Source: Cliona cf. orientalis
Taxonomy: Eukaryota > Porifera > Demospongiae > Clionaida > Clionaidae
NCBI GenBank assembly: GCA_963930775.1
Contig: OZ005690.1
Location: forward strand, 2,092,225-2,156,224
DNA length: 64,000 nucleotides
Direction of reading: 5' to 3'
Position numbers and translations under genes: made by a program
Notes under the pieces: model-generated
What the model was told of the DNA's origin: nothing
Database searches by the model: none
Seen by the model: the letters and a program-made list of their open reading frames with translations, nothing else
Shown: piece by piece, positions 1 to 62,006 of the stretch
Layout: each line of letters starts with the position of its first letter
Numbering within the stretch: the stretch's first letter is position 1

Positions 1-1400
1 GCTCTCCTGCTGAGTAGTTCTCCAGGAGTCCTGTACTCTGGCTTATATACCATCAGCAGTTCCACACTACTTGTGGGTTTCATTAAACTATGCACATGCA
101 CACATTCCATTCTGACCACAGAGCTGTTTTTGTGAACAGCCTCAGAATCTTGATTAAGGTCATAAGGTCATAGTGTCACATGACTGGCTATATTGCCTGT
201 GCATGGAGAGAGAGGGGGCTGGTAATAATTACCTCCACACGTGTGCAATTAGGGATAAAGCAATCAGTTTGGTTTATCTGTCTATACACACATGTATGTT
301 TATGCAGATGATCTAGTGTAGACCACCTTCCAAAAATTATTGTTGATAAACAACTTTTTGCTGCATGTGAATCAAAAGAGTGATGCACTCTGACATATAT
401 ATATACCATCAGCAGTTCCATACTACTTGTGGGTTTCGTTAAACTATGCACATGCACACATTCCATTCTGACCACAAAGCTGATTTTGTGAATAGCCTTG
501 GAATCTTGATTATTAAGGCCATAGTATGGTTGTATATATCACAGTCTTTCCCTTGCAAAGAGGGGAGGGGTGGGGTCTAGTAATAATTATCCTGGCACAT
601 CTCTGAATTACTATGTTCTTGCAGATGATCTATTGTAGACCACCTTCCAAAAAGTATTTAAGAAAGAACACAATTCCTATTACATCTCTGACTCTCCCTG
701 AAGAGTTCTGTACTCTGACTTATATACCATCAGCAGTTCCATACTACTTGTGGGTTTCGTTAAACTATGCACACACATGCCATTCTGTCCATAAATCTAT
801 TTTTTATGAATAGCCTTGGAATCTTGATTGTTTAGGTTATAGTATCACATAATAGGCTATATATTGTAGCTTGTGCTGAGGTGGGCGGGGTCTCGTTGTA
901 ATTACCCCAATTAGGAATATAAAACTCCTTCTGTCTACTGCATGTTTTTTTTCTCGCAGATGATCTAGTGTAGATCACCCTCCAAAAATTATGGATAAAG
1001 AATCAGCCATTCCAAGTAGCTCTCCTGCTGAGTAGGTAGTGCTCCAAGAGTTCTGTACTCTGACTTATATACCATCAGCAGTTCCACACTACTTGTGGGT
1101 TTCGTTAAACTATGCACATGCACACATTCCATTCTGACCACAAAGCTATTTTATGAATAGCCTTTGGAATCTTGATTGTTTAGGCTATAGTGTCACATAA
1201 CTGGCTATATAATATTATAGCAACGCCCTTGTGCAGAGGTCTAGTAATAATTACTCCAAACGTGTGCATAATTAGGGATATAAAAATCGGTTGTCTACTG
1301 TTTTTACAGATGATCTAGTGTAGATCACCCTCCAAAAATTATGGATAAAGAATCAGCCATTCCCATTAGTAGTTCTCCAAGAGTCCTGTACTCTGACTTA

Positions 1401-1914
1401 TACCGTAGGTCGGGTTTTAATTGCAAGTATCTATTAATTGTGAATTGTGAGTTTTTCTACGTTTGTATAGGTAATAGTGAGGTTGTATGTTGAATTTGGG
1501 TAAAATAGCACTCTGAAATAGGTATTTGGTTCAAAAATTGTACGAGCGATAGCGAGTACAATTTGATGAACCAAATGCCTATTTCGGAGTGCTATTTATC
1601 CAAATTCAACATACAACCTCACTATCACAGGCTAATAGTATACATACACAAAGTCAGATCGGTATTTCAACTCAGAAGGGTATTTCAAACTCAGGTGCCT
1701 ATTTCACTTGTAATACTTGTAATTGGTATACAAGATTTGTACACATCAAAGTACAAGTATACTATTACGCAATTAATAGATTCGCAAACATAAACGTGCA
1801 CGTATACTGTAGTACGGTACGGGGTCGTCCATCGCAATTATTGGATTCGCAATTTGGCCTGACTTGCCTAGAACGCAATTATTAAACTACGCAATTAAAA
1901 CCAGTCCTACGGTA
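1401..1914. mobile_element. Palindromic TACCGTA element carrying a nested insertion
   Basis: Left end TACCGTAGGTCGGGTTTTAA and right end AACC..GTCCTACGGTA are inverted. Internally a short word (TTAATTGC and variants) recurs several times. The related copy at 3497-3707 is only 211 bp; this one is 514 bp because another hairpin sits inside it at about 1474-1625. Confidence 0.7.
1474..1625. mobile_element. Nested long hairpin inside the 1401-1914 element
   Basis: GTGAGGTTGTATGTTGAA at the left is matched by TTCAACATACAACCTCAC at the right. The arms are about 60 nt with few mismatches, around a centre containing GTACGAGCGATAGCGAGTAC. The short open frames over this stretch are shadows of the palindrome. 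Confidence 0.7.
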
Positions 1915-2158
1915 TACCATCAGCAGTTCCACACTACTTGTGGGTTTCGTTAAACTATGCACACACATTCCACTCTGACCACAAAGCTATTTTTTATGAA
2001 TAGCCTTGGAATCTTGATTATTTAGGCCACAGTGTCACATGACTGGAGGTGAGGCTGGTAATAATAATTACTCCACACACTTGCGCAATTTAAAAGGGAT
2101 AAAGTAATCTGTTCTGTTTGTCTGTCTACTGTGTATACTAGTGTCATGCAGCGCCTGT

Positions 2159-2770
2159 TTGGGGCGAGCCTGAGCTGAGCCTCTGAAAGTCTCTGTCAGT
2201 AGCTGAGACTCGAAAACTTTAACAAAGCTATATCACAATAGATCATGAAGACCACTGACACATATCCAAGCAGACAATGACAGACAGTTTCACAGTGCCG
2301 TGTAGGCATATACAGCTTGATAGTTCCCTCCACATGTACATAGTGTCTGCCAACTGCTGCCAATAGTCGAGAGAAAATTTGATTTTAGCTGCCTCTGTTG
2401 TCAGAGTCAGTTAGCAACACGTCTATCTTTATCGCGTTCTTCTCCTTGCGTTGTTGAGCTGACGACAAGCTCTGTCTCGCTCGCTCCTCCTTTAGAGCCC
2501 AGCACAGTACAGTATAGCTTGACTCGTACCAATGGTAGCTAGCTATCTTGTACTTTGTGCAGGCACGAGTGTAAATTTGCAATTCGCTAAATTAGAACGG
2601 CGTATATACGGCCTGTAGCCCAGGCATGAGAATGCGCAATAGAATATTTCGCGTTTATGCCCATAGAGCCATGCTGGGCATATATTTCGCATGACCGACA
2701 TACCATATATATATATACAATTCGTGCATAGCTGTACCGTTTATGTGGGGCTCGCTCAGGCTCGCCCCAA
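2159..2770. mobile_element. 612-bp element with 17-bp terminal inverted repeats
   Basis: TTGGGGCGAGCCTGAGC at 2159-2175 is the exact inverse of GCTCAGGCTCGCCCCAA at 2754-2770. The element interrupts an array unit just before the GCAG anchor at 2776. No transposase frame is visible, so it is probably non-autonomous. Confidence 0.7.
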
Positions 2771-3171
2771 TTAATGCAGATGATCTATTGTAGACCACCT
2801 TCTTGTTAATGATAAACAACTTCTAGCTGCTTGTAAACCACAGAGTGCTGTGCAGCACTCTGACTTATATACCATCAGCAGTTCCATACTACTTGTGGGT
2901 TTCGTTAAACTATTATTTGTATGTATTATGTTTATGCAGATGATCTAGTGTAGACCACCTTCCAAAAAGTATTAAGAGTTCATAAACAATTATTGACTGC
3001 CTGTGAGTCCGGGAGATATCAATCCCCAAAGACCTGTGCACTCTGACATATATACCATCAGCAGTTCCACACTACTTGTGGGTTTCGTTAAACTATGCAC
3101 ATGCACACATTCCATTCTGACCACATTGCTGTTCTTGTGTGAATAGCCTCAGAATCTTGATTATTTAGGCC

Positions 3172-3322
3172 CAGAGGAGGTTGGTCACGGATTCTAACTT
3201 GCCTCAGGCTGCAGTGTACGCCCACGCAACCCAGGTCAACCCGCTGAGTCGGCAAAAACAATACGAAGTGCGACAATAAATTTAAAACGTACATTCAGAG
3301 AAATCACGACCAACCTCCTCTG
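3172..3322. mobile_element. 151-bp MITE with 9-bp target duplication
   Basis: Ends CAGAGGAGGTTGGTC and GACCAACCTCCTCTG are inverted and flanked by the direct repeat ATTTAGGCC (3163-3171 and 3323-3331). A 9-bp duplication is typical of Mutator-like elements. Related insertions at the same place in other modules (about 5226-5375 and 7228-7375) have decayed right ends, so the insertion predates some module duplications. Confidence 0.75.
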
Positions 3323-3496
3323 ATTTAGGCCAAAGCATCATAATATCATATCTGGCTGTATATCATAGCCTCGAAGGAGAGAGTGAGAGGGTCTATTAAT
3401 TTTTCAATCGTTTGGTAAAGGGCAATAAATAATTTTTTAATTTTTTTTTTTAATTAGAAGGGTTGAAGGAAGACTGTCATGCACTTAGGTACAATA

Positions 3497-3707
3497 TACC
3501 GTAGGTCGGGTTTTAATTGCGAGTATCTATTAAATGCGAATTGCGAGTTTTTTTACGTATCGCAATTAATAGATTCGCAAACATAAACGTGCACGCATAC
3601 TATAGTACAGTACGGGGTCGTTGATCGCAATTATTGGATTCGCAATTTGGCCTGACTTGACTAGAATACAAGTATTAAACTACGCAATTAAAACACGTCC
3701 TACAGTA
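3497..3707. mobile_element. Palindromic TACCGTA element, short form
   Basis: Starts TACCGTAGGTCGGGTTTTAA, ends with an inverted, slightly decayed TCCTACAGTA. It contains repeated AATTGCGA-like words and an internal TACGGGGTCGTTGATCG. It is the uninterrupted relative of the element at 1401-1914. Confidence 0.7.
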
Positions 3708-4418
3708 TATTATAGCAGTCACTATAGACCCCACTAACACACTAGCGATCCTCTAATTAACTCATAATGATTGGAGTTGATGGGATGATAATTGCTACCA
3801 AGTTAATTTTCATATTGCAGATGATCTGGTGAGGATCATCTTCCAAAAATTTTAGCAATTGCTAAGCTACTAGTCATAAGACCTATAGCTGTGCACTCCA
3901 GCTTATATACAATCAGTTGCTCCACAATACTTGTGGGTTTCGTTGAACTATGCACACACATTCCATTCTGACCACAAATCTATTAAATTTTTATGAAAAG
4001 CCTTGGAATCTTGATTGTTCAGCTATAGTGTCACATAACAGGCTATATAATAATATTTTAGCATCACCCTTGTGCTGAGGTGGGTGGGGTCTGGTAGTAA
4101 TTACCCCAAACGTGCACAATTAAGATATAGAAATTGCTTCTGTATACTGTATATGTTTTTGCAGATGATCTAGTGTAGACCACCCTCCAAAAATTATGGA
4201 TAAAGAATCAGCCATTCCAAGTAGCTCTCCTGTTAAGTAGGGTCCTGTACTCTGACTTATATACCATCAGCAGTTCCACACTACTTGTGGGTTTCATTAA
4301 ACTATGCACATGCACACATTCCATTCTGACCACAAAGCTGTTTCTATGAATAGCCTTGGAATCTTGATTGTTGAGGCTACAGTATCACATAACTGGCTAT
4401 ATACTGTGCTTTATTGGC

Positions 4419-4740
4419 CATCGCCTAGCAACCAAAGTTTTTATAGGTAAATTGCCGGCTACCAGAGGGGTGTGGGTGATCATAGGGTAGGCCAATGATG
4501 AGAGGGGGGTCATGGGCCAATAAGACAGTTACAAGACCTTAATTGGGGTGCATGAGATGCATGGTCGTAACTGTCTTATTGGCCCATGACCCCCCTCTCA
4601 TCATTGGCCTACCCTATGATCACCCACACCCCTCTGGTAGCCGGCAATTTACCTACAGTTACAAGACCTTAATTGGGGTGCATTCGACCATGCATCTCAT
4701 GCACCCAATTAAGGTCTTGTAACTATAACTTGCAAGTCAG
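4419..4740. mobile_element. Fold-back element (CCTAGCAACCAAAG family)
   Basis: Starts with GCCTAGCAACCAAAGTTTTTATAGG, runs through GCCGGCTACCAGAGG, and folds back on itself: the TACCCTATGATCACCCACAC arm is inverted relative to GTGTGGGTGATCATAGGGTA. It ends in a palindrome around GACCATGCATCTCATGCACCC. Relatives lie at 35880-36058, 48484-48668 and 54605-54790, with a partial copy near 50319-50391. Confidence 0.7.
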
Positions 4741-7700
4741 TTGTCTGTTGGAAAAGGTAAATAGGTAGTGGCTCTCAGTGCTTAATTCAGTTATACTACA
4801 AGTCACAAAGGCTATCAGTTTATATAGTGACAGAGACTGGTGCCATTCCCTAACTTTTCTAGACAACTGACCTGCAAAGTACAGTATTATAGCATTGCCC
4901 TTGTGCAGAGGTCTGGTAATAATAATTACTCCAAAGACATGCACAATTAGGGATATAAAAACTGCTTGTCTACTGTATATATATATATATATATGTTTTG
5001 CAGATGATCTAGTGTAGACCACCCTCCAAAAATTGTTGACAACGACGTAGAATTCGCGTTATTATATCTATTTGTTCTCCTCCAAGGCTCCTGTACTCTG
5101 ACTTATATACCATCAGCAGTTCCACACTAGTTGTGGGTTTCGTTAAACTATGCACATGCACACATTCCATTCTGACCACAAAGCTGTTTCTGTGTGAACA
5201 GCCTCAGAATCTTGATTATTTAGACCCAGAGGAGGTTGGTCACGGATTCTTCTTTGCCTTAGGCTGCAATGTACGCCCTCGCAACCCAGGTCAACCCGCT
5301 GAGTCGGCAAAAACAATACAAAGTGCGACAATAAAAATAAATTAATGCAACTTCCGAGAACTCGTTAAACCTCTGATTCAGGCCATAGTATTATGCCTGG
5401 CTGTATATCATAGCCTCTAGGGAAGGGGTGAGAGGGTATATTAAATTTTTAATCGTTTGGTAAGGGCGACAAATAATTAAGTTTTTAATTAGAAGGGCCA
5501 AATTTTTAGAAGGCATGGTATTATGACTACCATAAGCCGCATCAATTTTGTTTATAAATTTTTTGTGTTAGAAATATTATTCATGTAACAATATTTTTGT
5601 CAACTTCAAGTGTGCGCCATATCATAATATTATTTTCACGCTAACAAATCTTTCATCACTTTGTGCAAAATGAAAATTTAACAACGAAAATTTCGTAAAT
5701 TACGGTATGCATCAAGACCACTAGTAGCAAAAGCCTCGACTCAAGGTTATGCATTTTGGTACAACATGGCCAGAGCCATTCACACACAAATCATCCTCTA
5801 ATCAACTCATAATAGTTTGGATTTGATGGGATGATAATTGCTACCAAATTAATTTTTACATAGCAGGTGATCTGGTGCAGATCATCTTCCAAAAATTTTT
5901 TTGAATTGAAAAGTTATCAAATTGGTCTCTTTCACTAGCTACTTACAGCCTTGTGCACTCCAGCTTATATACAATCAGTTACTCCACACTACTTGTGGGT
6001 TTCCTTAAACTATCCACGCATGTTCCTTTGTGAGATAAGTAGGGTCTAGGCAATAAGATATGAATCTCATTAAAATGTTATGAATATCATTAACATTTGC
6101 TGTCCCGCTATGTATGAACAAGCTGATTTGACCAAGAAATCAGTGCAAGACTCCTCCAGAACACTGAGCCTTGATAAAATGAAGCCATGATGGTGGTTCT
6201 TACCAACTATGAAGCAAGAGAAGCTCTTTTTCTTTGCTCCTTGTCATGGACAGCTACTGCTGAATAACGTGATTATAAATGTAGGCTTGGTGGGTCACGT
6301 GCTGTGGTTTTTAATTAATTTTTTTTTTCAAATCTCAGAAATAAACGGTCAGTGGGTCCAAGAAACATGAAATCAAATTGATGTGGCCTTATAGGACTGT
6401 AACAGCCTGACATGTAGCTATTGGATGATAATATCATAATAAAACAATATTATTACAATGAAAATCAGTTTGGTGATCGTTAATTGTGTATATACATTAG
6501 TTGAAGGAATACTTTCATGCATGCACTTTGGTGCAACATATATAGCAGTCACTACTGACTCATTAACACACTAATGACCCTCTAATTAACTCATAATAGT
6601 TCGAGTTGATGGGATGATAATTGCTACCAAGTTAATTTTCATATTGCAGATGATCTGGTGAGGATCATCTTCCAAAAATTTTAGCAATTGCTAAGCTACT
6701 AGTCATAAGACCTATAGCTGTGCACTCTGGCTTATATACAATGAGTTGCTCCACACTGCTTGTGGGTTTCGTTGAACTATGCACACACATTCCATTCTGA
6801 CCACAAATCTATTAAATTTTTATGAAAAGCCTTGGAATCTTGATTGTTTAGGCTATAGTGTCACATATCTGGCTATACATGTATATTATAGCATCACCCT
6901 TGTGCTGAGGTGGGTGGGGTCTGGTAGTAATTACCCCAAACACTATATACACAATTAGGATATAGAAATTGCTTCTGTCTACTATATATTATTTTTTGTG
7001 CAGATGATCTAGTGTAGATCACCCTCCAAAAATTATGGATAAAGAATCAGCCATTCCAAGTAGCTCTCCTGTTTAGTAGTGCTCCAAGAGTTCTGCACTC
7101 TGACTTATATACCATCAGCAGTTCCACACTACTTGTGGGTTTCGTTAAACTATGCACATGCACACATTCCATTCTGACCACAGCTCTGTTTCTATGTGAA
7201 TAGCCTCAGGATCTTGATTATTTAGGCCCAGAGGAGGAGGTTGGTCACGGATTCTAATTTGCCTCAGGCTGCAATGTACGCCCACGCAACCCAGGTCAAC
7301 CCGCTGAGTCAGCAAAAACCATACGAAGTGCGAAAATAAAAAGCACATTCCAAGAAAATCGTTAAACCTCTCATTCAGGCCATAGTGTCATAATGTTATG
7401 TCTGGCTGTATATCATATAGTGAGAGCGTCTACTAATTTTTCAATCGTTTGGTAAAGGGTGACGAATAATTAGAAGGGTCAAATTTTTTTGAAGGCATGG
7501 TATTATGACTGCCGTAATTCGCATTAATGTTGTTTGCAAAATCTTTGTTAAATATTCGTGTAACAATATTTTCGTCAACTATATACAAGCGCGCACCATG
7601 TATTTGCTGTATAAGTTAGTACAGGTGCATAAAATTAATTTAAATCAGTTACTCCACACTATTTGTGGGTTTCATTAAACTATGCACACACATCCTTTTG

Positions 7701-9252
7701 TAACTAGAATCCCTTTTTTGTCCGTAAATATTGTAGATCTAAACAAGCAGTATTCCTGGGGGTATAAAAAGCCGTTTTTGTACCATGGGTACTGTTATTC
7801 GCGTTAATTTTGTATGCAAAATTTTTGTGCTAGAAATATTCATAATAATACTTTCGTCAACTTAAAGCGCATGCCATATTATATTCAATGTATAAGTTAG
7901 TACAGGTAAAATATCATTGCGTAAAACGTTCTTTTGTCACACAATTTTCACAAACTACGTATACAGTACGACCAACTTGACTTAAGTGGACAATGTCATG
8001 CATTTTGGTACATAGCAGTCACTACTGACCCATTAACACACTCATGCTCCTCTAATCAACTCAAGTTGATGGGATGACAATTGCTACCGAGTTAATTTTC
8101 ATATCACAGATGATCTGGTGAGGATCACCTTCCAAAAATTTTTAATCACCTCAATGTTGTAAAATTTTTGCTAGTTACAGAGTTGTGCACTCTGGCTTAT
8201 ATACAATCAGTTGCTCCACACTACTTGTGGGTTTCGTTAAACTATGCACACACATTCTTTTGTGACTATAATCGCTTTTTTTGTCCATGAATAGCGTTGA
8301 TCTAAACAAGTAAAATGGGCAGTATACCAGGGCGTATAAATAGCTGTGTTTGTACCATGTAAAATATTTTCGCGTAAATATTTTTCGTCACTTCGTGCTA
8401 GATAAATAATTTCAACAATAATTTTTTTTTACAAATTATGGTATGCATTAAGACCACCAATGAAAGCCTTGACTCAAGTGGACAATGTCATGCATTTTGG
8501 CATAATAATATTATAGCAGTCACTACTGACCCATTAACACACTAGTGCTCCTTTAATTAACTCGGAGTTGATGGGATGATAATTGCTACCTAGTCAATTT
8601 TCTTTCATTTGCAGATGATCTGGTGAGGATCACCTTCCAAAAATTTTTATCATCTTCAAGTTGCCAAGCTATTGATTAGCTTGATCTATATTAGCTCTGC
8701 ACATTTTGGCTTATATACAATCGGTTGATCCACACTACTTGTGGGTTTCGTTAAACTATGCACACACATTCTTATGTGACTACAATCTTTTTTGTCAGTG
8801 AATAGCATTAAGTAAAATGGCCAGTATACCTGGCGGTATAAAAAGCTGTTTTTGTACCATGGTTACCGTAATTCACGTAAATTTTGTTTGCAAACTTTTT
8901 GCGTTGGAAAAATTCATGTAATAATATTTTCGTCAACTTCAAGTGTGCCATATATTCGTTGTATAAGTTAGTACAGGTAAAATCTTTTCGAATAAAAAAA
9001 AATTGTCTATTTGCGTGCAAAATGAAAATGTAACACAATGTAACACTATAGCAGTCACTACTGACCCATTAACACTAATGCTCCTCTAATCAATTCACAA
9101 TAGTTGGAGTTGATGGGATGATAATTTCGCAAATTATGGCATGCATTAAGACCACCAGTGAAAGCCTTGACTTGAGTAGTTGATGTCATGGTACAATGTA
9201 GCAGTCACTACTGACCCATTAATACACTAATGATCCTCTAATCAACTCATAA

Positions 9253-9432
9253 TACCGTATAGCCGGAAAAATTGGTGGGATATAAATTTGGTGGTTGAGC
9301 CCAAAATCGCATTACAAGAAATTTGGCAGTTCGGTACGGGATCGCCATACATATATATGCGAGTAAGAAATTTTGGCGGATTTTAATTTGGCGGTTGTAA
9401 TATAGACCGCCAAATTTTCCGGCTATACGGTA
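9253..9432. mobile_element. Palindromic TACCGTA element (AATTTGGCGG word)
   Basis: TACCGTATAGCCGGAAAA at the left is matched by TTTTCCGGCTATACGGTA at the right. The word AATTTGGCGG recurs inside, with a central GGTACGGGATCGCCATAC. Relatives are at 12268-12474 and, degenerate, at 62098-62320. Confidence 0.75.
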
Positions 9433-10620
9433 GTTGGAGTTGATCGGGTGATAATCTTCGTAAATTATGGGTATGCATTAAGACCACCAGTGAAAGCCTT
9501 GACTTGAATAGTTGATGCCATCCATTATGGTGCAATAATCTTATAGCAGTCCCTATTGCCATTAACACACTAATGCTCCTCTAATCAACTCATAATACAT
9601 GGGAGTTCATGGAATGATAATTGCTACCAAATTAATTTTCATATTGCAGATGATCTGGTGAGGATCACCTTCCAAAAATTTTTGATCATCTAGAAATCGC
9701 CAAGTTACTAGTAATAAGATCTATAGCTGTGCACTCCAGCTTATATACAATCAGTTGCTCCACACTACTTGTGGGTTTCGTTAAACTATGCATACACATT
9801 CTTTTGTGACTATAATCACTTTTTTGTCTGTGAATAGCATTGAGTAAAATGGCCAGTATACCTGGCGGTATAAAAAGCCGTTTTTGTACCATGGCTGCCA
9901 TACTTCGTGTTAATTTCATTTGCCAAATTTGTGTTAGAAATATTCGTGTATTAATATTTTCATCAACTTCAAGCACGCACCATATTATATTTGTTGTATA
10001 AGTTAATTAGTAGGTAAAATCTTTTCAAATAAATCTTTTCAAATAAAAAAAATTGTCAATTTGTGCGCAAAATGAAAATTTAATACTATAGCAGTGACTA
10101 CTGACCCATTAACGCACTAGTGCTCCTTTAATTAACTCATAATAGTTCGAGTTGATCGATGATAATTACTACCAAATTTATTTTCATATTGCAGATGATC
10201 TGGTGAGGATCACCTTCCAAAAATTTTTTGGAAATTTAAAAATTGTCCAGTATCTAATCTGCAGATGCAATAACAGTGTGCACTCCCGCTTATATACAAT
10301 CAGTTGCTCCACACTACTTGTGGGTTTCGTTAAACTATGCACACACACATTCTTATGTCACTTTACAATCAATATTTGTGTACCAATATTTTGTCAACTT
10401 CAAGCAGTGCCATATATTCACTGTATCATGTACATGTAGTTGAAATGCTACCAAGCTAATTTTCCTTCATTTGCAGATGATCTGGTGAGGATCACCTTCC
10501 AAAAATTTTGAATATCGAAAAATCGCTAAACTTCTAGTTAGTAGATCTATACATCTGCACTCTGGCTTATATACAATCAGTTGCTCCACACTACTTGTGG
10601 GTTTTGTTAAATTATGCATA

Positions 10621-11329
10621 TATTCTTTTGTGACTATAATCCTTTTTTATTTTTGTCCATCAATAGTTTTTGTTTGGTGTATAGCTTAGATCTAAGCAAG
10701 CTAAACGGACCCCATGCAGTATACCTGGGGGCATAAAAAGCTGTTTTCGTACCATGGCTACTGTAATAATAATTTATGTTCGTTTCATTTGCAAAATTTT
10801 TGTGCTTGTGAAACAATATTATTATGATCGTCAATATCAAGCGCCTGCTATATTATATTCCCTGTATAAATTTGTACAGGTAAACTAGTTTCGCATAAAA
10901 AACTTTCATCACTTGGTGCAAAACGAAAATTTAACAATGAAAAATTCGCAAATTATAGTATCTATGTAACTATTACCATGTTCATATGTTATCAAAAATA
11001 ATTAATATTGACTGTTAGGGAAGGAAAAGTAGACATCCAATAGTCTAGAAATCATTTGAGCAGTGACTCTGTGTACCACTAACTAGATTACAAAAGCTTT
11101 AAATTAGTGAAATTTTTGTTGTTAATTGGCACAAAGTGATGAAAACAGTTTACATGTACTAATTTATACAGCAAATATATGGCGCACGCTTGAAGTTGAC
11201 GAAAGTATTGTTACCTGAAAATTTAATTCTAACACAAAAATTTTGTGAACAAATTAACGTGAACGATGTATGTTGCTATATAATAGTAGCTTGTGGGTAG
11301 CATATGGTATTCCAAAGAGTGCATATCAC
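10621..11329. other. Array-edge non-coding stretch
   Basis: AT-rich DNA with fragments of the array's intermodule DNA (TATAAAAAGC ... ACCATGG near 10733-10757, and in inverse order near 11110-11260). No module hairpins and no gene were recognised. Confidence 0.5.
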
Positions 11330-11512
11330 ATACATAGTTCAATGAAACCCACAAGTAGTGTGGAGTGGGTGATAGTTTATAAGCCAGAGGCCTCCTGCAA
11401 GGGAGTAGCCATGAGACGAGCATCATCAGAACCATGCTGATGTTCTATGACAACAATAGAACAAATTTTTGGAAGACAGTCTACACTATTGTGGATTGTC
11501 TGCAACAATATT
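11330..11512 (-). repeat. Inverted copy of the array module
   Basis: The same module in the opposite orientation: block 2 (AACCCACAAGTAGTGTGG on the + strand, then TATAAGCC) lies near 11345-11385 and block 1 (TTTTTGGAAG ... GTCTGCA) near 11465-11505. It is more diverged than the direct copies and marks the end of the regular array. Confidence 0.75.
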
Positions 11513-12267
11513 GAGTGTTTTTAACCCTCGGCGCATGCGCGAGGGGTACGGTAGTCGTTCTGTGTGTGTGTGTGTGTGTCTGTCTGTTATCACGCCAGCT
11601 GCTACATACCTGGTTAATACGATGCAAACAAGACGCCATTAGGCGTTCTACGGCATTTTCAAGGTCTGATTTGTGTGGATTTCGTTGAAAACGCTTCGTT
11701 CAAAAGTTCTGGCGACATTTGCTGACCACCATGGCCTTCTTCGCTTCTTGACCAGCTCTCGATTGATGAAAGAGACAGCGATGGCTTCATTTCAAGATTA
11801 GTAGTGTGTAGTTCTAGCGATAGTTCTTAAAACTTGACTGACTCTTCACCGATCTCAGTAGGCTATCAACTATGCTTCTTGGCTTTACTTTGTATAATAT
11901 TTAGATCTGCTGATCTGGCATGCACGTGGTACTATTGCGTAATACCGTGCAATCGCATTCTTGTGGCTACAGAGTAATAGTACCACTGTTGCTTGGCTTA
12001 TATACATGACAGCTTGCAAATTTGCAACATGCAGACTAGCTATTGCTATTGCGCCGAGGGTTTTGCACTATAGTGCTTCATTTGGGTTGGGACTGGTTTA
12101 TTTGGAAGCTGTTGTTAAATTAATGAAAGTTGTATTAATTTCGTATGCCAATAATATTCCATGCTGTACTTCATCTAAAAGAATATGAAAAAACGATTTT
12201 GAAAATGTGTGCTTTAATGGTAAAGGTCGTCATTTGCTCCATATATACAAGAATTCGTAAATACATG
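11513..12267. other. Non-coding stretch with (GT)n tract
   Basis: Contains CCCTCGGCGCATGCGCGAGGGGTA followed by ACGGTAGTCGTTCTGTG, which is the inverse of a motif found between most of the secreted-protein genes, then a (GT)n tract near 11561-11578. GGTAAAGGTCGTCATTTG occurs at about 12220. No credible coding exon was seen on either strand. Confidence 0.5.
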
Positions 12268-12474
12268 TACCATATAGCCGGAAAATTTGGCGGTTTGGTA
12301 GTCTATATTACAACTACCAAATTAAATCTGCCAACATTTCCTACTTGCTTATATACGTAACTATGGTGATCCTGTACCAAACCACCAAATTTAAATCTGC
12401 CAATATTCTTGCAATAGTGATTTTGGGTTCAACTGCCAAATTTAATTCCCGCCAATATTTCCGGCTATACAGTA
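12268..12474. mobile_element. Palindromic element (AATTTGGCGG word)
   Basis: Left end TAC.CATATAGCCGGAAAATTTGG, right end CCGGCTATACAGTA. The internal words are inverted copies of the 9253-9432 element with decayed ends. Confidence 0.65.
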
Positions 12475-12601
12475 TCATACATTAAATTGGATCACTCATT
12501 GTCTTCGATCAACTACAGCACAGTATGTACTGTATTAGAACCCTACAGTTTCCAGCCCCCTAATAAATATCACCATAACACTGCTATAATATTATAATAT
12601 T

Positions 12602-12700
12602 GCAGATGATCTGGCTTATATAGCACCGTGCTCTGGCTTATATAGCAGCAGCTCTTCCACACTACTTGTGGGCTTCGGTAAAACTATGTGCACGCATGAT
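12602..12700 (+). repeat. Degenerate array module
   Basis: GCAGATGATCTGG is followed almost at once by CTCTGGCTTATATAG and the CCACACTACTTGTGG hairpin, so the spacer is nearly lost. It is the last recognisable module before the (CT)n tract. Confidence 0.7.
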
Positions 12701-59676: not shown

Positions 59677-62006
59677 TTAATTATAGGCATTACAGTAGGT
59701 GGTGCAAATTTTCTCAGCAACAGCTGGATCGAGAGGTTCAACTGCTTTGGCAAGTGCTTGCCAGGAGGGAGGAGGGTCGACCTGTTGTAGCCATGCACAA
59801 AACATTTCACGTAAGCAGTCACTAGCTCCACTATACTTGTATTCGATATTATCTAGTGTTCCTTTATCAATTGTAAGAAATACTCCTAGATTTTTCCACT
59901 CAGAAGCCAGTGATAAACTAATTTTGAGAGCAGAAGGCAAAGTGAGAGAAGCAGCGACAGTTGAGGGTTTAATACGTTCGGGTGCCGGCTCAAGCCAGTA
60001 ATCGTAGCCTGAAGGAAAATCACATAGTTGAGCTCGATTTGTCTCCTTCAAGCACAATAAATTGCAAGGAATGCCCTTATGCTGTACTAGTTCAGCGATA
60101 TGCGATCTGCAAAGTGAGCAGTAGAAAGTGGGGGTACAAGTGCATGTCAAATTTAGGTCTTTGCAGACTGTTTGAATAGCTAACTTGACTGATTGGCAGA
60201 TTTCACGGCATGTATCTTGGATACTACAGGCAGCCTCGGCTCTCTCGGTACTAGGGGCATAAACAACTTCAAAATGGGTCGGATACAAGCAAAGTGTTAT
60301 AAGATGGGGACCAACCAAGAAGGATACCTGATCGCGAAAAATTTGGTCAGGTTGCAACGACCAATTATACTCTGACTTCATTTCATTTGTCATAAGGAAC
60401 TTAATTACAGCACCAGTCACTCCCTTGGGACAATAGCCACAGTCAAATACCATGGCTAGTGTTGGAACTGCACTGTGCTGTTTTGGCGGGTAAAGTACTA
60501 GGTCAGCATGTGCTAAGACACAAGGGATAAAGAGCTTTTTGCCATCAAGAAAGGGAACAATGATTCGCAGATGTTTCAGGAGCTCAAAGAAACGAGAATG
60601 AGTAAGAAGCGGGTCTGAAGTTGTACCGCATATTCGTTCAAAATCTTGAAATGAGAAAATCCCTTTGTTTTTGAATTCATCACATAGCAGTTTACCTGCC
60701 CTTTCAAAGGTAAAGGTTTTTACGATCAGGTCAGTAATTCGATCAAAGAGAAGCTGTGGATCAAGAATGACAATCTTGTCAAGGTCACCATAAGGAAAGT
60801 AGCGAATCACCCCCATTTTTGTGTGAAGAAACCACAGCGCTTCCTTTAGCTCTTCATCACTGTCTATGCCACACCGCTGAGCTACTAAAGAACATTCATC
60901 GTAGCTAACTACACGCCCACTCAAGTTACGAATAACTAGGCTGAAGATAAGCCAGTGTGTGGGGATGCTCATTTGATACTCACTGAGCTGAGCAATTGTG
61001 TTTACTTTGGATCTGATAAGTGCAAAATCAGCATCACTGTTTGCAAGATTATTCACTGTGAAGACCAGCTGACTCTCGCTGGCAAACTCTATGAGGCCAT
61101 CACGATAATGGGATGTTGAAATGATCATTTGCTGAAGATAGCAATCTTTCTTTTTGATTTCTTCTACAGCTGTTGCAGGATTAAGCAAATCCTTGTGCGT
61201 GCCTATAAAGAGCACCTTTGGCTTCAATTGCACATTCTTTCCCACACCTTTATATATAAATGTGCCCATTGCAGCAATGGTAGATAAGCTTTGTAGAATT
61301 GATTCCTTAAGGGTGACAGATGACTGATAAGGTTTAGACCGTTGACCATCTGGAAGCTCATACTCGATAGTAAAAAGCTCATTGAGATCACGATGCAGAG
61401 GAAAAACTATAAAGAAAAGCGAAGGGCCAGATACTAAGAGAGGCAAAAGCTCCTGAAACTCCATCTGGCCTCCTACATCAGAAAGATAGAGAGTCCAAGA
61501 ACCATCAAGATGCTGGCGAAGTGCGACAATTCCATCAGTGCGAAGAGCGTTTTCAAAGGTTTGCCTTGGAGGAACGTAACCTCTTGGCATCTGTATAGGA
61601 TGGTTATCAACTGGTGCTAAATTTTCTAATGTGCCCTCCTGTTCTGGATGACGATCAGAAGAGAACTGTGTAGCTACTCTGTCACTACCTGTTGGCATTA
61701 GACCCTGAGCAGCAAGCATCATAAGACGTAGAGCTTCGCCACCGTACGTCAAATGCAGCCAAGTGGACTCAAAGACACTAGTGGCAATAGATGAAGACTT
61801 CTTTACGCTGACGTGAATTACCTTATCAGCTGCACCAGTGCTGGGTGAGGTTGGGGGGAGCTCCTTCTTTAGGAGTCGTTTAATCAGCGAGCTTTTACCA
61901 GATCTTGCAGAACCTAGAAACACACCATGCATCACTGTGTGATCAAGTTTGCCTTTAGTTGCGATAGCTTCTTCAATAGCAGCAATGTGCTTCTCATCTT
62001 CTATAC
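59677..62006 (-). CDS. ROCO-like GTPase with C-terminal death-like domain, 3' exon
   Basis: A single open exon entered by acceptor TTTGCTACAG at 62006 (phase 1) and ending TAA at 59677. About 775 codons are visible, beginning IEDEKHIAAIEEAIATKGK. GTPase signs: P-loop GSARSGKS about 30 residues in, switch II DVGGQMEFQ (about 175), and THKD (about 270) in place of NKxD. A COR-like part with a winged-helix look (WLIFSLVIRNLSGR, VAQRCGI, WFLHTKMGVIRYFP, LFIPCVLAHADL) follows. A cysteine cluster CTCTPTFYCSLC lies near 640. The last 84 residues (SLASEWKNLGVFLTID, LREMFCAWLQQ, WQALAKAVEPLDP) look like a death domain. This architecture is common in innate-immune-type genes of sponges and cnidarians (general knowledge). 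N-terminal exons lie upstream or outside; the partner domain is unknown. Confidence 0.8.

Follow-up and report, generated by a model that had tools for sequence, protein, structure and literature searches.

The repeated modules at the start of the window (the whole stretch of DNA analysed, 64,000 nucleotides) probably constitute an array of RNA polymerase II snRNA-type genes for Sm-class RNAs with gene-specific 5′ antisense domains, and the array would be one part of a genome-wide superfamily. From the gene anatomy it is nearly certain that the modules are snRNA-type genes of the Sm class. Pattern counts across the genome place them in a superfamily of at least 63 such predicted genes, in several families, and the predicted RNAs probably act as antisense guides. 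Transcription, Sm loading and antisense action are steps that we infer from the sequence.

A complete module reads, on the minus strand, as a PSE (GAAACCCACAA), 21 bp, a TATA box, a predicted start ~31 bp past the initial T of that box, a variable 5′ domain of 25–55 nt, an Sm site and a terminal stem-loop. The Sm site is AATTTTTGG or a close variant, which is the canonical, spliceosomal form, and a 3′ stem-loop follows it, as in Sm-class snRNA genes. Of 68 genes, 67 have a PSE-to-TATA spacing of 21, under a script that allowed 19–23 and with non-array loci gathered by patterns that allowed 20–22. The array itself is real: it holds 22 complete genes, some of them upstream of the window, and C2:2.090–2.105 Mb contains 27 PSE copies with two mismatches or fewer, compared with none for the reversed control pattern. 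The contig with the locus measures 14.8 Mb and the genome 217 Mb, and the array extends ~2.2 kb upstream of the window start.

Predicted Sm-class RNAs on the minus strand lie at 10474..10542 (PSE at 10606, TATA box at ~10573) and, with the PSE position in brackets, at 10192..10265 (10329), 9647..9716 (9780), 8612..8686 (8750), 8107..8172 (8236), 7001..7080 (7144), 6647..6707 (6771), 5864..5940 (6004), 5001..5078 (5142), 4162..4232 (4296), 3818..3878 (3942), 2937..3023 (3087), 957..1040 (1104), 622..695 (759) and 305..374 (438). The gene at 7001..7080 has its 5′ domain in common with the genes whose PSEs are at 4296, 1104 and 82, and the gene at 6647..6707 has the 5′ domain of the gene with its PSE at 3942. 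At 1..82 (minus strand, PSE at 82) the promoter of a further gene and its initial bases are inside the window; the body of that gene is upstream, at locus L009, which also contains five more complete genes. An inverted complete copy is found on the plus strand at 11407..11497, with its PSE at 11343, TTTATAAG, a 5′ domain of ~55 nt, an Sm site and its own 12-bp 3′ stem-loop. Five modules in the array are broken. On the minus strand of the window, a broken gene at 1307..1949 has its PSE at 1949 and its Sm site and stem-loop at 1307–1342, with ~500 bp inserted between them (extent judged by eye); a likely pseudogene at 2780..2904 keeps PSE, TATA box and stem-loop and has lost the Sm site (by eye); 7640..7674 is an orphan PSE without gene body, and 12600..12677 is a degenerate module remnant.

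A sequence-only reading had described these modules as structured small noncoding RNA genes with three conserved hairpins and a middle spacer that was free to vary. That reading was right in kind, but the predicted RNA lies on the minus strand and contains a single one of the three hairpins, namely hairpin 1, the stem-loop downstream of the Sm site. The strings given for hairpin 1 are present (GATCTGGTGCAGATC at ~5869), and the strand is what has to be changed: standard pairs fill 95.8% of cells on the minus strand versus 80.8% on the plus strand in 22 sequences (12 distinct); these are the 21 genes that are complete on the minus strand, plus the 3′ portion of the split one, with the inverted plus-strand copy left out. 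A structured RNA on the plus strand is therefore rejected. The forms of hairpin 1 that had been called G-U compatible are in fact A·C mismatches on the plus strand and G·U pairs on the minus strand. The spacer is indeed variable, and corresponds to the 5′ domain of the RNA together with the stretch from TATA box to start.

Folding and covariation bear on the same stem-loop. The 3′ segments fold at −10.8 versus −6.0 kcal/mol for shuffled sequences, and 39 of the 58 distinct segments reach p ≤ 0.05 against shuffles. Within the array, the covariation that had been suggested as a check does not exceed 500 shuffles; one pair shows a double change, in two sequences. Across families genome-wide the terminal stem does covary: 87% of positions are paired in 38 distinct rows, versus a permuted mean of 72% and maximum of 78% (1000 permutations that ignore the kinship of rows), with 16 of 68 genes dropped for a missing 3′ anchor and with one or more of the retained rows (L081, GTCCAGCT arm) visibly mis-anchored.

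Hairpins 2 and 3 belong to the promoter. The U1 and U2 genes of the same genome carry an array-type PSE 62–64 bp upstream, with two mismatches or fewer in 13 of 17; the remaining four (U2 genes L011–L014) have it at the same place with 3–4 mismatches. At the U1 gene of locus L023 the element reads GAAACCCACAAGTACTG, matching the PSE of module family B. The spacing agrees less well: in the 12 U1/U2 genes where the script found a TATA motif, it is 21 in seven, 20 in one and 23 in four. Array and host U1/U2 genes have in common an snRNA-type promoter with its PSE at a fixed distance; hairpins 2 and 3 are assigned to this PSE, whose GAAACCCACAA core also occurs in the U1/U2 genes. Their strings had been reported correctly (CCACA-CTACT-TGTGG, with loop changes at 3922, 5122, 6751 and 7654 and CCATA at 418, 739 and 2884; GTTT-CGTT-AAAC, which varies near 3950 and 10605), but because they lie upstream of the predicted start site, we leave them out of the RNA structure. 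Inspection by eye shows no CCACA...TGTGG palindrome in those promoters of U1, U2 and family B that were examined.

Beyond the array, an exact promoter-plus-Sm pattern finds 63 matches genome-wide, on 14 contigs, and its reversed controls find 0 and 0. A slightly stricter pattern gave no match in a collection of prokaryote genomes; among viral contigs four records matched, with an identical stretch in all four, which we take for chance. No Rfam family, spliceosomal U snRNAs included, exceeds its cut-off in the window or at the 32 loci scanned (20 and 12, without six of the copies on contig C1). Searches for U6 genes by family and by pattern found none.

The 5′ domains are what distinguish one predicted RNA from another. 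After exclusion of gene L103 (position 983), which was anchored on the wrong Sm site, from the 5′-domain and 3′-segment counts, the 66 distinct 5′ domains form 58 clusters. Shared 6- to 8-mers do not exceed shuffles, and structure is scarce (7 of 66 with p ≤ 0.05), as would be expected of a guide. These same two features would also suit a different explanation, in which the Sm-class RNA genes are real, the 5′ domain is drifting filler, and the RNAs are sinks for the Sm ring or SNAPc, or functionless. Over all 231 array pairs, 5′-domain identity is 0.51 versus 0.49–0.50 for the distal flanks, and this equal divergence leaves room for drift. Searches for targets found none, which is likewise in keeping with filler: a conserved 25-mer from one 5′ domain occurs in just four array copies and at no other genome site with three or fewer mismatches, and in ~68 kb of local sequence the mean longest complementary run is 10.9, compared with 10.9 for shuffles. 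Among 46 non-array domains, the longest complementary run in that local sequence is 15, and shuffles reached 13.

Pairs of genes with related flanks argue against drift. Both flanks are homologous in 21 array pairs, which are not independent. Ten of these pairs also have homologous 5′ domains (z > 4; two are weak, at 4.4 and 4.9, and six come from one four-gene group), nine have 5′ domains without recognisable relationship (z < 2) and two lie between, whereas drift predicts a more gradual series. Moreover, in eight of 11 related pairs, selected for having 5′ domains that can be aligned, the aligned 5′-domain columns are 0.93–1.00 identical beside flanks of 0.77–0.94; in the other three the columns are 0.77–0.89 identical. 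On balance we consider drifting filler unlikely, though it is the alternative to be taken most seriously, and antisense guides are the function that we favour.

A mobile element or satellite that carries an snRNA promoter by chance is far less plausible. It would fit contig C1, which holds nine near-identical copies, the three examined lying inside a dispersed repeat of >1.7 kb that is 96–99% identical. It does not fit the window-type modules, which a genome search confines to one locus, nor the other families, whose genes occur clustered or singly and keep a conserved anatomy. The search for dispersed copies had been proposed as the way to separate noncoding RNA genes from a SINE, and it served that purpose: as copies are found at one locus only, the window module is not a SINE, and a dispersed transposon is rejected for it as well.

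Spliced-leader (SL) RNAs with many different leaders are very improbable as well. SL RNAs are short, of the Sm class and often tandem, SL families with several leaders exist elsewhere, and the array genes are likewise short, tandem and predicted to be Sm-class; AGGT occurs in seven of the 66 distinct 5′ domains. The predicted genes, however, show neither a conserved leader nor a consistent splice donor: 16 of the 66 domains lack GT altogether, GTRAG occurs in one, the domains fall into 58 clusters and have no 6- to 8-mer in common above shuffles, and a donor right after the Sm site (AAG|GTGRTC) is present in part of the array only, with GC or TC in other families. We therefore reject SL RNAs, which carry a shared leader ending in a GT donor.

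There is equally little to recommend variants of U7 snRNA for histone pre-mRNA 3′ processing, which we likewise reject: architecture and size are alike and TCTTT occurs in some 5′ domains, but the Sm site is the spliceosomal AATTTTTGG and not the U7 form (AAUUUGUCUAG), the 5′ domains fall into 58 clusters, and RF00066 has no match over its cut-off (best 24.4 versus 34 bits, 65 scored of 37,347 candidates), with none of the 21 matches listed at these loci. Of 73 matches to the histone stem-loop family (RF00032), sought as a lead to histone downstream elements, four were examined; they look like one dispersed repeat and not like clear histone genes.

In the mechanism that we propose, the minus strand carries snRNA-type genes for RNA polymerase II in a tandem cluster. 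Each PSE (GAAACCCACAA...) would be the binding site of SNAPc, with the TATA box 21 bp further on, and transcription, starting ~31 bp past the initial T of that box, would cover 5′ domain, Sm site and 3′ stem-loop and yield RNAs of roughly 60–100 nt. An Sm ring would be loaded by Sm site and stem-loop, while the 5′ domain, single-stranded and different from gene to gene, would pair with a target RNA, like the 5′ ends of U1 and U7 and like the HSURs of Herpesvirus saimiri. More tentatively, and at somewhat less than an even chance, the superfamily may be a natural "U7smOPT-like" repertoire of antisense snRNPs, in which promoter, Sm site and 3′ stem-loop stay fixed across dozens of RNAs while the 5′ guide can be exchanged, so that duplication and guide replacement could retarget them to splice sites, mRNAs, or parasite or virus RNAs.

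To our knowledge, animal Sm-class RNAs besides the viral HSURs are few and stereotyped (U1, U2, U4, U5, U11, U12, U7, SL and SmY). If our reading is true, at least 63 extra Sm-class RNAs that have promoter and Sm module in common and differ in the 5′ domain would make up a repertoire of a kind that we know from no other cellular genome; in the open-access literature, the titles and abstract openings among the matches listed describe no such repertoire. If the 5′ domains are guides, this would be natural programmable RNA targeting by snRNPs.

Known systems resemble the array in part. In U1 of the same genome a stem-loop likewise comes after the same Sm site, and U1 and U2 have the same PSE core at the same distance, but in the window and at the 32 loci scanned the predicted RNAs reach the cut-off of no Rfam family, U1 and U2 included. 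SmY is a small multigene Sm-class family, with 12 members in C. elegans according to PMC11229312, and the array is likewise multigene, small and, by prediction, Sm-class. The gene at 5001..5078 even has a weak same-strand match to SmY (RF01844, 5001–5069, minus strand), but it scores 18.1 bits versus a cut-off of 39, and in SmY a stem-loop flanks the Sm site on either side, the first one conserved, whereas the array 5′ domain is variable and mostly unstructured (p ≤ 0.05 in the 7 of 66 noted above); SmY is rejected on these grounds. U7 consists of a 5′ antisense domain, an Sm site and a 3′ stem-loop, and U7smOPT can carry other antisense heads. The array genes have this same order of 5′ domain, Sm site and stem-loop, but U7 is one RNA for one target class, whereas the array layout comes with dozens of heads. 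U7smOPT, which according to PMC13003931 binds the Sm core only, is artificial, whereas the array layout is natural; the same source describes current engineering of this snRNP design to alter splicing and to edit RNA. The HSURs are also small Sm-class RNAs with several per genome, and HSUR1 and HSUR2 bind host miRNAs while HSUR2 base-pairs with mRNAs, as stated in PMC6763288 and PMC13158664. We liken them to the array by layout; they number seven viral genes, against no fewer than 63 predicted ones in the 217 Mb of this genome.

The array of repeated modules at 1..12700 and its relatives elsewhere in the genome are, to judge from their sequence, very probably genes for Sm-class RNAs. In a genome of 217 Mb and 149 contigs, the array extends over ∼C2:2.0900-2.1049 Mb (contig OZ005690.1), or −2.2 kb to 12.7 kb of the window (C2:2092225-2156224). 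The hairpin strings of the sequence-only reading are present at their correct positions in the window sequence; its plus-strand reading of the modules does not hold, as the minus strand fits better for all complete modules except one. On that strand a complete module runs from GCATAGTTTAA-CGAAACCCACAAGTAGTGTGGA, with small variations, through a TATATAAG-type box and a gene-specific stretch to (A/T)AATTTTTGG or a close variant, followed by a stem-loop of the type GGTGRTCyrCACyAGATCATCTG. We refer to these elements as PSE, TATA, 5′ domain, Sm site, and 3′ stem-loop. There are 21 complete genes on the minus strand and one inverted copy on the plus strand (11343-11497), together with five broken modules: one split by an insertion (1307-1949), one that has lost its Sm site (2780-2904), a bare PSE (7674), a degenerate copy (12600-12677), and one upstream of the window (−1608). 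Long palindromes at 1486-1611, inside the insertion that splits gene 1307-1949, and at 4486-4613 look like MITEs; miRNA precursor model matches there are below cut-off.

Elsewhere on the minus strand, the window carries a tandem cluster of reading frames for cysteine-rich proteins (15828-38764), which by eye look secreted, and an ORF of 752 codons (59677-61935) that encodes a COR-A domain and has a match to Roc under its cut-off. The one cysteine-rich protein scanned has no Pfam match; of 7,999 candidates scored, at least 7,509 are relatives at E ≤ 1e-3, and most of the 120 listed are ENA entries without a name.

Hairpins 2 and 3, previously read as RNA structure, are promoter DNA instead, because the PSE and its spacing are common to the host U1 and U2 genes. 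An Rfam search of the host genome gives nine U2 and eight U1 matches over cut-off. The best match to GAAACCCACAA, sought within 75 bases upstream of each gene, begins 62-64 bp 5′ of the RNA in 17/17 cases, with no more than two mismatches in 13/17. The U2 genes L011-L014 (contigs C13 and C4) match with 3-4 mismatches, which is unconvincing alone; they contain ATAAAA in place of TATA, together with elements of the TTTGCCACAA or ATCACCACAA type, and there seem to be two U2 classes with different promoters. A TATA motif lies 30-32 bp upstream in 12/17 genes, at a distance from the PSE of 21 in seven, 20 in one, and 23 in four. Among array modules and relatives, 67 of 68 genes have a spacing of 21 between ACCCACAA and TATA, where the script permitted 19-23 and the patterns collecting loci outside the array permitted 20-22. 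The U1 gene L023 shares GAAACCCACAAGTACTG with the PSE of module family B. Taking U1 and U2 as the model, the predicted transcription start lies ∼63 bp downstream of the PSE start. Searches of the whole genome for U6, with RF00026 or with a U6 27-mer at 3 mismatches, gave no match, probably because the search was limited or because the host U6 is divergent.

The site 3′ of the variable part, AATTTTTGG or a close variant, is identical to the Sm site of the host U1 sequences inspected, and the stem-loop follows it directly. This is hairpin 1, which stands as predicted RNA structure but on the opposite strand from that first proposed: 95.8% of cells in the 10-bp array stem are paired on the minus strand vs 80.8% for the plus strand, an indication that the RNA has the minus-strand sense. 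These values cover 22 sequences, of which 12 are distinct, including the 3′ part of the split gene and excluding the inverted copy. Inside the array the expected covariation is weak: a single double-change pair occurs, in two sequences, and neither that count nor the covariation score is above shuffles. When families are compared genome-wide, covariation of the stem is evident, with 87% pairing in 38 distinct rows vs 72% for permuted arms (maximum 78% in 1000 permutations, which take rows as unrelated and ignore their kinship) and 27-52% for slid arms. When each 5′ arm is represented once (22 rows), the values are 87% and 73% (maximum 81% in 2000 permutations, with kinship likewise ignored). 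Arms were anchored by sequence, with the Sm site at left and a CTGC-type motif at right, and 16/68 genes without an anchor were dropped. For 58 distinct 3′ segments the folding energy is −10.8 vs −6.0 kcal/mol for dinucleotide shuffles, with p ≤ 0.05 in 39. Histone-type 3′ stem-loops (RF00032) match 73 times in the genome, 28 over cut-off; four of the 73 (L111-L114) have similar flanks, as in a dispersed repeat, and may follow the end of an open frame upstream in sense orientation. It would be odd for a repeat to carry a histone-like 3′ end.

Matched exactly, ACCCACAA-N20..22-TATAWA-N50..80-TTTTTGGA occurs at least 63 times on 14 contigs of the host genome, and the reversed pattern not once. 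C2 holds 20 (the window's array), C1 and C6 10 each, C11 five, C3 and C15 three each, C7, C8, C9, and C14 two each, and C5, C13, C17, and C18 one each. A looser regex on fetched pieces gives 68 genes, and with the six of ten C1 matches that lie outside those pieces the superfamily totals at least 74, counting variants. Nine near-identical copies of another putative Sm-class RNA gene family lie at C1:22.97-37.09 Mb. All three fetched copies (L076, L077, L078) are inside a dispersed repeat, which may have spread them; at L076 the repeat stops ∼230 bp beyond the PSE, which places the gene close to the repeat's end. A slightly stricter promoter-plus-Sm pattern has no match in the prokaryote genome collection, and the four matching IMG/VR records, identical over the matched stretch, are taken for chance. 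An Rfam scan of the window and 32 loci shows no family at or over cut-off; a sub-threshold SmY match in one array gene, on the minus strand (18.1 bits vs a cut-off of 39, E 3.6), is a lead only.

Excluding one gene with a mis-anchored Sm site, 67 genes carry 66 distinct 5′ domains of 25-59 nt; with an identity threshold of 0.68, these group into 58 clusters. The 66 domains have no 6- to 8-mer in common above shuffled sets, and 7/66 exceed 95% of shuffles in stability. Across all 231 array pairs, identity is 0.88 in the PSE, 0.86 in the Sm site and stem-loop, and 0.51 in the 5′ domain (shuffled 0.47), which is thus not more divergent than the distal flanks (0.49-0.50). In the 21 array pairs with both flanks homologous, the 5′ domain is homologous in 10 (two weakly, and six stemming from one group of four genes), not recognizably related in nine, and between in two. 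Among 11 related pairs picked for aligning 5′ domains, aligned columns are 0.93-1.00 identical vs 0.77-0.94 for the flanks in eight and 0.77-0.89 identical in the remaining three; in one of the eight (759/−262, named by PSE position), the upstream flank is as conserved as the 5′ domain (0.94 and 0.95). Genes 3087, 5142, and 7144 have common upstream flanks, with the U2 segment of that flank 0.88-0.90 identical and, by eye, one ∼120-150-bp insert (window ∼3165-3310, 5220-5340, and 7225-7370); their 5′ domains are 0.42-0.55 identical, close to the shuffled level. These comparisons favor kept or replaced heads over slow drift, and promoter-site recombination between units could be the source of part of the pattern.

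SL RNA, U7, and SmY identities each fail on the features tested, and no description of such an RNA family was found in the open-access literature among the matches listed, judged by titles and abstract starts. Base-pairing by Sm-class RNAs is known to be flexible, with the U1 and U7 5′ termini among the examples (PMC6763288), and antisense targeting by the 5′ domains is on that basis the likeliest function, at about even odds. The conserved 25-mer of one 5′ domain has no other site with ≤3 mismatches in a genome search, and complementarity of 5′ domains to local sequence is at shuffle level, both tests being blind to the short or imperfect pairing used by known Sm-class RNAs and to targets outside the genome. 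The layout of HSURs resembles that predicted for the array RNAs. U7 and the engineered U7smOPT combine a single-stranded, gene-specific head with an Sm ring and a 3′ hairpin, the same arrangement that the genes described here would predict.
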